DNA of 64,000 nt from Phyllobacterium endophyticum. Its GTDB lineage: Bacteria; Pseudomonadota; Alphaproteobacteria; Rhizobiales; Rhizobiaceae. The translations under genes and the position numbers were made by a program. The notes under the pieces are model-generated. The model worked only from the letters and a program-made list of their open reading frames with translations. It was not told the DNA's origin and made no database searches. Every line of letters begins with the position of its first letter. The first letter of the stretch is position 1. The DNA is taken from positions 496,001 through 560,000 of the forward strand of contig NZ_PGGN01000002.1 of assembly GCF_003010935.1 (NCBI RefSeq). Reading direction: 5' to 3'. Below are positions 41,576 through 44,163 of the stretch, in pieces.

Positions 41576-42739
41576 TCACGCACCGTGCGGACGCAGAAGA
41601 GCGCGCGAGATGATATGCCGCTGGATTTCGGAGGTGCCCTCCCAGATGCGTTCGACACGCGCGTCGCGCCAGATGCGTTCGAGGGGCAAGTCATCCATCA
41701 AGCCCATGCCGCCATGGATCTGGATCGCCTCGTCAGCGACAAAAGCCAGCATTTCGGTGGCCTTGAGCTTGGCCATCGCCATGTCCTGATCCGTGACTGT
41801 ACCTTGGTCGAACTTCCAGCCAGCCTCAAAAGTGAGGAGGTCGGCGGCTTTCAGCTCCGTTGCCATATCGGCGAGCTTGAACGAAACGCCCTGGAACTTG
41901 CCGATCTGCTGGCCGAATTGCTGGCGCTGAGCCGCATATTCGATGGCGTGGCCAAGCGCGCGCTCGGCGCGGCCGAGACAGGTGGCCGCCACCTGGAGAC
42001 GGGTTGCGCCGAGCCAGGTATTGGCGACATCAAAGCCCTTGTGGACTTCACCAAGAATCGCATCCTGCGGCAGGCGGCAATCATCAAACTCGATGATCGC
42101 GTTGGTGTAACCGCGATGCGAGACATTGCGATATCCTTCGCGAATGGTCATGCCGGGATGACCCTTGTCAACGAAGAACGCCGTGATCTTCTTTTTCCTG
42201 CCGCGCGGCGTGTCTTCTTCGCCGGATGCGACGAAAAGGATAACGAAATCCGCTTCGAGCGCATGGCTGATGAAGTGCTTCGTGCCATTGACGACCCAGT
42301 CACCCCCGCTTTCAACGGCGGTGGCCTTCATGCCGCGAAGATCGGACCCGGCACCCGGTTCGGTCATCGCAAGGCAGTCGGACTTTTCGCCGCGAATGCA
42401 GGGGAACAGGTACTTTTCCCTCTGCGCATCGGTGCCGGCGAGCAGAATGTTGGAAGGCCGCCCGACACAGCTCCAGTGCAGCGCGTAATTGGCGCGGCCA
42501 AGTTCCTTTTCGTAAAGAAGCCATGTTACCGTATCGAGACCCGCGCCGCCCACGTCTTCCGGCATGTTGGCGGCGTAGAGGCCGGCGTCGATTGCTTTTT
42601 GCTTCAGCTCACCAGCCAGTTCCTTGCGCAGAACCCCCGTGCGCTCGACCTCCGCTTCGTGTGGATAGAGTTCGTTTTCGACAAACGAGCGTGTCGTCTC
42701 GACAATGAGCCTTTGTTCCTCCGAAAGACCGAAATCCAT
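41576..42739 (-). CDS. Acyl-CoA dehydrogenase, probably acting on gamma-butyrobetainyl-CoA
   Basis: A 387-residue flavoprotein of the acyl-CoA dehydrogenase family. The FAD-binding motif appears as CLAMTEPGAGSDL, the C-terminal helical domain as RQQFGQQIGKFQG and AIQIHGGMGLMDDLPLERIWRDARV, with the catalytic acid expected in the last part (WEGTSEIQ). The start at 42739 is preceded by GGGAAAGG eight nt upstream, and this ribosome site lies inside the terminal inverted repeat of the element at 42744-43098. In the operon it would oxidise gamma-butyrobetainyl-CoA to crotonobetainyl-CoA, or work in reverse as CaiA does. Its ligase neighbour is 11 nt downstream. Confidence 0.82.
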   Translation of the reverse strand: MDFGLSEEQRLIVETTRSFVENELYPHEAEVERTGVLRKELAGELKQKAIDAGLYAANMPEDVGGAGLDTVTWLLYEKELGRANYALHWSCVGRPSNILLAGTDAQREKYLFPCIRGEKSDCLAMTEPGAGSDLRGMKATAVESGGDWVVNGTKHFISHALEADFVILFVASGEEDTPRGRKKKITAFFVDKGHPGMTIREGYRNVSHRGYTNAIIEFDDCRLPQDAILGEVHKGFDVANTWLGATRLQVAATCLGRAERALGHAIEYAAQRQQFGQQIGKFQGVSFKLADMATELKAADLLTFEAGWKFDQGTVTDQDMAMAKLKATEMLAFVADEAIQIHGGMGLMDDLPLERIWRDARVERIWEGTSEIQRHIISRALLRPHGA

Positions 42740-42743
42740 GGTT

Positions 42744-43098
42744 AGAGCCTTTCCCGGCCATATTGGCCGTATTCTGTTTCTCGCCTGACGAGACAATCCG
42801 CGCGGAAGGTGGCGAGGCCGATGTGGTTCATCGGCCGAAGCCGCTTGACAAAGCGGGTGTTCGTCAGACGGAAACCCAGCCGTTGGTTTGCTTTGCAAAC
42901 CAACAAGCTTTCAAACCCGCTGGTCGCATTATCCACATTTCGAGAGGAATGCGGTTCGACCAGTGGGACGGGGCCTGTTGCGCCAATATCGGCGCCAAGC
43001 CTCTCGCCCGCACGCAGAGTGCGGGTCTTCGTGTCTTTGCTTGATCTTGTCACAACATGCCTCCGTCAGAATAGGTCAATATGGCCGGGAAAGGCTCT
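42744..43098. repeat. Hairpin-rich 355-bp element with perfect 22-bp terminal inverted repeats
   Basis: The ends 42744-42765 and 43077-43098 are perfect 22-bp inverted repeats (outermost bases AGAGCCTTTCCC... and ...GGGAAAGGCTCT), extended inward by a 7-bp match (42770-42776 with 43067-43073). Inside are several stems: 42816-42836 (8 bp), 42841-42856 (6 bp), 42883-42903 (9 bp), 42916-42967 (about 16 bp with a 4-base bulge) and 43007-43025 (7 bp). It fits exactly between the carnitine dehydrogenase stop and the acyl-CoA dehydrogenase start. No protein frame is evident. It may be a MITE-like insertion or a structured intercistronic RNA. Confidence 0.85.
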
Positions 43099-44163
43099 TT
43101 AGCCCTTCTTTTTCTTAGGCTTGCTGGTTTTGGCTTTTTCAGCAGCTTTGGATGTAGCGGGCTTTTGCGCCAGCTTCGACAGACGCTGGGTGTAGTCGTT
43201 GTGAAGTGCGCCTGCACCCCACCCCTTGCCCTTGTTCTGCTTGGAAAGGGCTTCCATGATGGCCACGAGATTATCGTCGCGGATGCGCTCCAATTCGCGG
43301 ATCGACAGGCCATGCGCCTGTTCGTCCGACTGATTGGCGATCTTGTCGACCAGTCCCTCGTCAAGTTCCGGCACATCCATCAGCTTGGTCCACGGCCAGG
43401 AGAGGCACGGGCCGAACTGGGCGATGAAGTGGCGCATTCCGGCTTCACCACCGGCAACGCGGTAGACCTGGAACATGCCCATCTGCGCCCAGCGAATGCC
43501 GAACGAATAGCGGATGATGTCGTCGAGCTCTTCGACGGTGGTAATGTCGTCCTTGATCAGCCACAGGGACTCGCGCCAGACGGCTTCGAGCAGGCGGTCG
43601 CCGACGAAGGCTTCGATTTCCTTGCGGATCACCACCGGTTTCATGCCGATCGAGGTGTAGAGTTCGCGTGCCTTTTCGACAGCTTCAGGCGAGGTTTGCT
43701 TGCCGCCGACGATCTCGACCAGCGGGAGGAGATAGACAGGATTATAGGGATGGCCGACGACCAGACGCTCAGGGTGCTTCATCGCCGTTTGCATTTCCGA
43801 CGGCAGGATGCCCGAAGTGGAAGAACCGACGATGGCATCGACTGCCGCGTGTTTGTCGATTTCGGCCAGCACCTTGTGCTTCAGGTCGAGCCGTTCCGGA
43901 ACGCTTTCCTGGATGAAGTCTGCACCGGCTACGGCGGCTTCGATCGTCTTGGAAAAGGTCAGCTTGCCTTCCTTCGGCAAGCCACCCGGCACCATTGTCT
44001 TATAGGCGCGGCGTGAATTCTTCATCACCTCGCTGACCTTGCGCTCGGCTTCAGGATCCGGATCGAAGATGGAGACGTCTATGCCGTTGAGAAGCAGGCG
44101 GGCAACCCAGCCCGCACCGATAACACCGCCGCCTATAGCTGCGGCCTTGCGAATACCTGCCAT
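43099..44163 (-). CDS. cdhA: L-carnitine 3-dehydrogenase
   Basis: A 354-residue enzyme of the 3-hydroxyacyl-CoA dehydrogenase family. The NAD-binding motif is AAIGGGVIGAGW, followed by GSSTSGILPSEM and HPYNPVYLLPLVEIVGG, as in L-carnitine dehydrogenases. It oxidises L-carnitine to 3-dehydrocarnitine. The assignment is supported by cdhC 6 nt upstream. The core ends near residue 325; the last 30 residues form a Lys-rich tail (KPATSKAAEKAKTSKPKKKKG, given here only in part as KTSKPKKKKG), which is not usual. Some relatives carry a fused thioesterase domain at this end; here the thioesterase is a separate gene at 46382-46873. Confidence 0.88.
   Translation of the reverse strand: MAGIRKAAAIGGGVIGAGWVARLLLNGIDVSIFDPDPEAERKVSEVMKNSRRAYKTMVPGGLPKEGKLTFSKTIEAAVAGADFIQESVPERLDLKHKVLAEIDKHAAVDAIVGSSTSGILPSEMQTAMKHPERLVVGHPYNPVYLLPLVEIVGGKQTSPEAVEKARELYTSIGMKPVVIRKEIEAFVGDRLLEAVWRESLWLIKDDITTVEELDDIIRYSFGIRWAQMGMFQVYRVAGGEAGMRHFIAQFGPCLSWPWTKLMDVPELDEGLVDKIANQSDEQAHGLSIRELERIRDDNLVAIMEALSKQNKGKGWGAGALHNDYTQRLSKLAQKPATSKAAEKAKTSKPKKKKG

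Follow-up and report, generated by a model that had tools for sequence, protein, structure and literature searches.

The segment that separates the carnitine 3-dehydrogenase gene (cdhA) from an acyl-CoA dehydrogenase gene in Phyllobacterium endophyticum raises the question of whether it is a mobile element, a regulatory RNA acting between two operon genes, or a transposable repeat that has come to serve translation. The locus was analysed within a 64,000-nucleotide stretch of contig NZ_PGGN01000002.1 (positions 496,001 to 560,000; assembly GCF_003010935.1), referred to here as the window, with genes defined by an open reading frame (ORF) together with a profile match. An original prediction, made from the letters alone, had described a structured 355-bp element bounded by a perfect 22-bp inverted repeat. 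The terminal arms (42744-42768 and 43074-43098) were found to be 25 nt long and 96% complementary, with the outer 22 nt free of mismatches, and the element lies, as had been described, exactly between the two genes of a minus-strand operon: the cdhA stop codon TAA (43101-43099) directly abuts one edge, and the ATG of the acyl-CoA dehydrogenase gene (42739-42737) stands 4 nt beyond the other. The Shine-Dalgarno (SD) sequence that had been placed eight nt before that ATG, within the downstream arm, was likewise recovered there, and its predicted anti-SD pairing energy is -8.0 kcal/mol. The TA bases noted near both edges were present at the downstream edge, but the upstream edge of the window copy reads AA. 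The features of the locus are collected in Table 1.

Table 1. Features of the cdhA-acyl-CoA dehydrogenase junction, in window coordinates
Feature	Position	Strand	Evidence or remark
Whole element, long form, 355 bp	42744..43098	- (sense)	Same-ended copies elsewhere and empty sites
5' arm of terminal inverted repeat (AGAGCCTTTCCCGG...)	43077..43098	-	Complementarity and covariation with 3' arm
3' arm of terminal inverted repeat, SD-bearing; portion retained in four truncated copies elsewhere	42744..42765	-	
Shine-Dalgarno-like GGGAAAGG	42748..42755	-	Separated from the acyl-CoA dehydrogenase ATG by 8 nt
Small ORF, GTG start, 103 codons, end CTC-TAA at element edge, 2 nt before next ATG	42742..43053	-	
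GGAGG, putative SD ahead of the small ORF	43060..43064	-	
87-nt segment replacing the 3-nt UUC loop of the 271-bp form	42878..42964	-	Extra hairpins; ORF frame kept (+84)
Downstream gene, acyl-CoA dehydrogenase	41576..42739	-	Alignment with related profiles begins at residue 1
Upstream gene, carnitine 3-dehydrogenase (cdhA)	43099..44163	-	NF005716, 602 bits, cut-off 592

Copies of the repeat beside start codons

The host genome contains a second full copy of the element on contig C4 (96% identical) as well as shorter relatives, and some match to the element was seen in at least 18 of 20 Phyllobacterium genomes, among the matches listed. With a core pattern allowing up to three mismatches, 27 copies were identified in 13 of the 20 genomes; all 27 were read, and two main forms, of 271 and 355 bp, were distinguished. 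As copies share junctions and are therefore not independent, they were grouped by us into 19 junctions. At 16 of these (23 copies, all in sense orientation) an ATG or GTG lies 1-5 nt beyond the sense end of the element, between co-directional ORFs, the upstream one ending anywhere from 12 nt before to 49 nt inside the element. Start-adjacent junctions numbered 16 in sense against one in antisense (two-sided binomial, 0.0003), the latter being a reversed copy that nevertheless has an ATG at +2 (L046). The other exceptions are a single MurB junction (L051 and L061), where the start codon lies at +57/58 with an SD-like sequence of its own, and a junction that looks convergent (L047). Profile searches placed MurJ, FabI, FtsW-like, ThrB, MoaD, PhnM (downstream of L042), GlcE-like, and ABC permease and ATPase families among the downstream genes. 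The original prediction had proposed looking for further copies and for the same operon without the insert; besides the copies described above, empty sites were present in relatives at all seven junctions tested, of the 19 in total. At the cdhA junction itself, the window copy (L001) is of the long form and its orthologue in a second species (L054, genome G002) is of the short form; their sense 5' halves are 99% identical and their 3' halves 92%, suggesting gene conversion between copies.

Before all 23 start codons, the 3' terminal arm consists of GGGAAAGG or GGAAAGGG (or variants) followed by CTCT, with predicted anti-SD pairing energies of -4.7 to -10.0 kcal/mol. It is proposed that the element is probably a MITE of the IS630 type in which the inverted repeat also serves as a Shine-Dalgarno sequence, a process termed SD capture here, rather than a conserved on/off switch. 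Under this proposal, a non-autonomous IS630-type (TA-target) MITE would insert just ahead of start codons in operons with closely packed genes and, where a clear native Shine-Dalgarno sequence exists, on the downstream side of it, and its terminal repeat, ending GGRAARG-CTCT or a close variant, would be used in vivo as a well-spaced substitute. The downstream gene would stay translated because the element itself brings an SD, and operons appear to survive insertion because the repeat end seems to replace the ribosome-binding site. The host would then become dependent on the 3' arm, which would be retained even after the remaining element had been lost. When the arm was compared with the joined flanks, anti-SD pairing was better for the arm in 14 of the 23 copies, equal in three and worse in six, so that what the host gains would be preservation at most. 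A strong native SD (joined flanks pairing at -7.0 kcal/mol or below) was left ahead of the element at only 9 of the 16 junctions.

The strongest evidence for SD capture comes from the way in which copies appear to decay. A census of the 3' arm (up to three mismatches) returned 28 matches in 14 of the 20 genomes, four of which have no 5' arm; each of these four has an ATG 1-4 nt away, and they precede an ABC-ATPase gene (in the host genome), a FabI gene, a RecO-like gene and an aldehyde dehydrogenase gene. By comparison, not one lone 5' arm was found among 28 matches to that arm in 13 of the 20 genomes. The aldehyde dehydrogenase remnant recurs in plasmid record NZ_CP104968, where 40 nt lie between the deoC stop codon and the ATG. 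Furthermore, where the outer 14 nt were compared at six shared junctions (ten non-independent pairs), the 5' arm had 23 differences and the 3' arm nine; the counts were 16 and six when the L040/L052 pair (J5), in which the arm is shifted by a deletion, was left out.

Two further loci were noted in this context. At one remnant, that of the RecO-like gene, which follows an Era-like gene, the arm is changed (L219, G003:C1:136919-136950), and a local hairpin would show the SD-like sequence GGAAAA in its loop. In the host genome, a divergent 356-bp subfamily member (L003, contig C9:59434 and around) has the arm AAGAGGCTCT and is possibly another SD capture, since only 2 nt separate its end from an ATG.

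Were SD capture to be correct, a transposable element would have a route into dense bacterial operons that leaves them unbroken, its terminal repeat bringing the signal for translation to start, and the host would depend on the element at loci including fabI, murJ and ftsW, genes which are usually essential. The filled, empty and decayed versions of one junction in sister species constitute natural sets in which this could be tested.

A small open reading frame within the repeat

A further reading, compatible with SD capture, is that the small ORF within the element is translated, its SD, GTG and open frame handing ribosomes on to the next start codon while the sequence of the peptide is unimportant; this was regarded as possible, if somewhat doubtful. 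The GTG mostly stands behind GGAGG, and by our reading the frame stays open, in 15 of the 16 sense junctions, until a stop codon at the downstream start or immediately beside it; these 15 include L055, where the frame runs about 23 nt into the next gene. Such a stop is, however, almost automatic from CTC plus a TA target, other frames are nearly open too, and in L048 both the start and the frame of the small ORF are lost and yet the ATG is still adjacent. Similar small ORFs are also kept in copies from other genera, which lie mostly away from start codons. Among 18 short copies (a set omitting L051, L061, L050, L052, L053 and the long forms), 41 synonymous substitutions were counted against 32.8 expected, 74 nonsynonymous against 79.1, and no stop against 3.1; changes at the three codon positions numbered 38, 36 and 41, however, with no excess at the third. 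In the sense copies beside a start codon, the frame is preserved by six of seven net indels (+84, -3, -6, -15, -75 and -108, with L048 the exception), which is our own, post hoc count (binomial, 0.007), and the small ORF is frameshifted in the antisense copy L046 and in the non-adjacent copies L051 and L061. The fabI remnant has retained a mini-ORF that ends CTC-TGA beside the ATG. These data favour translation without a conserved peptide. No Pfam family matched the product, and a protein-coding element was rejected on this result and on the lack of a strong codon signal. By bringing ribosomes to the downstream start codon, as a third step added to SD capture, a small ORF that reaches that codon may contribute translational coupling, for which the evidence is weak to moderate.

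Mobility and relation to known repeats

The element is short and transposase-free, with terminal inverted repeats, several copies and empty sites, in agreement with the MITE that the original prediction had considered: dispersed, structured and set between two operon genes. TA was found at the left edge of 13 of the 27 copies and at the right edge of 21. IS630-type elements duplicate TA, with a preference for CTAG, and the element ends together with the TA edges suggest an IS630-type MITE. Against this part of SD capture, only 11 of the 27 copies have TA at both edges, and a profile search for DDE_3, which matched in 6 of the 20 genomes, gave no match in the host genome. When 17 loci were checked for TAGAGC...GCTCTA at a spacing of 700-2600 bp, one was positive: a 1065-bp IS630 element in one Phyllobacterium genome (G004, L183:1383-2447), with two ORFs whose matches to HTH_Tnp_IS630 and DDE_3 exceed the cut-off. 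For each of the 17 loci examined, the two six-base ends would fall within 200 nt by chance with a probability of about 0.0015. Its ends, TAGAGCG(G)TTTA, resemble those of related subfamilies of the repeat, and it is a candidate partner of the repeat superfamily by whose transposase copies might be moved; it shares only the outermost bases, however, with the 27-copy subfamily. The visible end of a second IS630 relative (L182, 69%) reads TAGAGCGTTTCC / CTAGAGCGTTTCC.

Relatives of the 3' module were found in at least 19 of 199 genomes of the family, two of them Phyllobacterium, this being a lower bound with three candidates scored per genome. Many are closed by different arms that are nonetheless complementary and end TAGAGC/GCTCTA. 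Among 47 related loci (54 minus seven with no clear ends), three have a start codon 1-5 nt past the sense end, and in one more (L020) an ATG overlaps the last base; the gene-calling rule here differed from that used for the 27 copies and omitted short ORFs (L027, for example, has an ATG at +2). That most loci of the subfamilies with different arms are found away from such positions would be expected of an ordinary MITE, in which the junction bias is survivorship only and the SD likeness of the terminal repeat is due to chance. This alternative was considered unlikely, as lone 3' arms are retained and lone 5' arms are not, and as survivorship would need to act on one subfamily only, given that the related copies remain intact at sites not adjoining a start codon. 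The 5' core, with compensatory-looking changes, was recognised in Rhizobium alvei and in MAGs of Salaquimonas, Tepidamorphaceae, Hyphomicrobiales and Aestuariivirgaceae. A distant relative in the Salaquimonas MAG (L115/L137/L169; in L115 at about 1501-1834) lies 3 nt before a ferredoxin-like gene, which we take to be fdxA, and SD capture may therefore occur outside Phyllobacterium.

In the literature available as open-licence papers, no account was found of this element or of any MITE that provides an SD by such a route. A phage origin was rejected, there being no match to a phage record at E 1e-5. RIMEs are abundant on Sinorhizobium meliloti pSymB; a blastn search of that replicon with the 134-nt 3' module (E up to 1) gave no match, an indirect sign against identity with RIME, as the comparison was with the replicon rather than with a RIME sequence. 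A general likeness to the rhizobial RIME, Sm and A/B/C palindromic repeats, as these are outlined in PMC2573895, lies in being dispersed, intergenic and of conserved secondary structure. The Bru-RS repeats of the related genus Brucella are also palindromic and intergenic, and on the account in PMC2267715 they differ in length, at 103-118 bp against 271 or 355 bp. The pneumococcal BOX elements, as far as these are described in PMC3049150, are comparable as modular, folded repeats that are co-transcribed with operons and in some cases contain ORFs; three expressed BOX ORFs reportedly have no good SD candidates, and SD capture does not figure in that account. MITEs in general, of which the 113-bp, AT-rich MITEAba12 is an example (with 9-bp target duplications and, in the description given in PMC6382973, no known coding sequence), share short length, terminal inverted repeats, the lack of a transposase, multiple copies and empty sites with the present element. 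Unlike MITEAba12 as described there, the Phyllobacterium repeat bears an SD in its terminal arm, and its copies stand 1-5 nt before start codons in a single orientation.

Folding of the repeat and possible sequestration of the Shine-Dalgarno sequence

The structure claimed for the element was borne out by folding: the minus-strand RNA folds at -186.5 kcal/mol (z -12.3) and the plus-strand DNA at -105.1 kcal/mol (z -12.8), with none of 100 shuffles as good in either case. A 75-pair structure over 25 copies, a set that includes orthologues and from which L052 and L053 were left out (both in alignment A1 and in the arm-pairing test), has 98.2% of its cells paired. Both sides had changed at 13 of the 75 pairs, against a mean of 6.4 in shuffles (none of 500 as high) and 0-3 in slid versions of the structure, a lenient control since the structure was derived from the same sequences. 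The covariance analysis that had been proposed thus shows compensatory changes that keep the structure. The two arms of a copy also covary: own arms pair at 8.92 of 10 variable positions and arms taken from different copies at 6.99 (permutation p 5e-5; 25 copies, orthologues included). The further proposal that arm pairing would hide the SD agreed with the in silico model, in which the SD of the intact element has an unpaired probability of 0-0.22 in all 23 copies, a calculation made without a shuffled control. Blocking 20 nt of flank together with the first 13 nt of the element raised this to 0.32-0.85 in 22 of the 23, again without a shuffled control, and L043 remained closed (0.02). For the window copy, the values for the 8 nt of GGGAAAGG, shifted by 1 nt, were 0.00 and 0.41.

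These results are compatible with an intercistronic switch, as put forward in the original prediction, in which arm pairing sequesters the SD until a signal (ribosome traffic, temperature, a protein or a ligand) opens it, and in which selection keeps the pairing. The copies do share the kind of fold that a cis-regulatory switch would have, one that is conserved, shows covariation and closes over the SD; it is, however, equally expected of transposon ends, and the pairing of the arms can be explained in that way because complementary arms also close related subfamilies that mostly do not adjoin start codons. Mispairs of the G-U and A-C types were balanced (13:13; 70 shared pairs, 20 copies), and the consensus fold was more stable antisense to the operon (-122.0 kcal/mol against -98.8 in sense; -104.1 against -95.2 in a second estimate), which gives no favour to selection on folding of the mRNA. 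A switch is also at odds with the four remnants that have lost the 5' arm, with the faster divergence of that arm at shared junctions and with downstream genes that have no obvious common regulatory need. In Rfam 15, no family was matched by the window stretch (E up to 1) or by five related loci (at gathering thresholds), a result on which a known structured RNA or riboswitch was rejected. A role as a conserved switch was therefore judged improbable, more so than that of an ordinary MITE.

SD capture itself could make use of the same fold in a second step, in which the arms would pair in the mRNA, looping the element out and hiding the SD, and a ribosome that ends translation at the stop codon of the upstream gene, at or close to the element edge, would cover the 5' arm and free the SD, so that the two genes would be translationally coupled. 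Such coupling through the terminal stem is plausible because, in the model, the SD is freed when the start of the element is blocked, as it would be by a ribosome at that stop. In its fullest form, which we put forward only tentatively, the proposal would be of a mobile element invisible to operon translation, one that rebuilds the upstream stop codon where this is hit (TA + GAG = TAG), provides a substitute SD, brings stop and start together by looping out its body, hands on ribosomes by its small ORF and leaves hosts dependent on the SD-bearing arm. In the window, two weak terminator-like hairpins (42755-42769 and 42867-42884; 1.2 expected) were found on the plus strand only, antisense to the operon; they could make insertion in the reverse orientation polar, partly accounting for the orientation bias.
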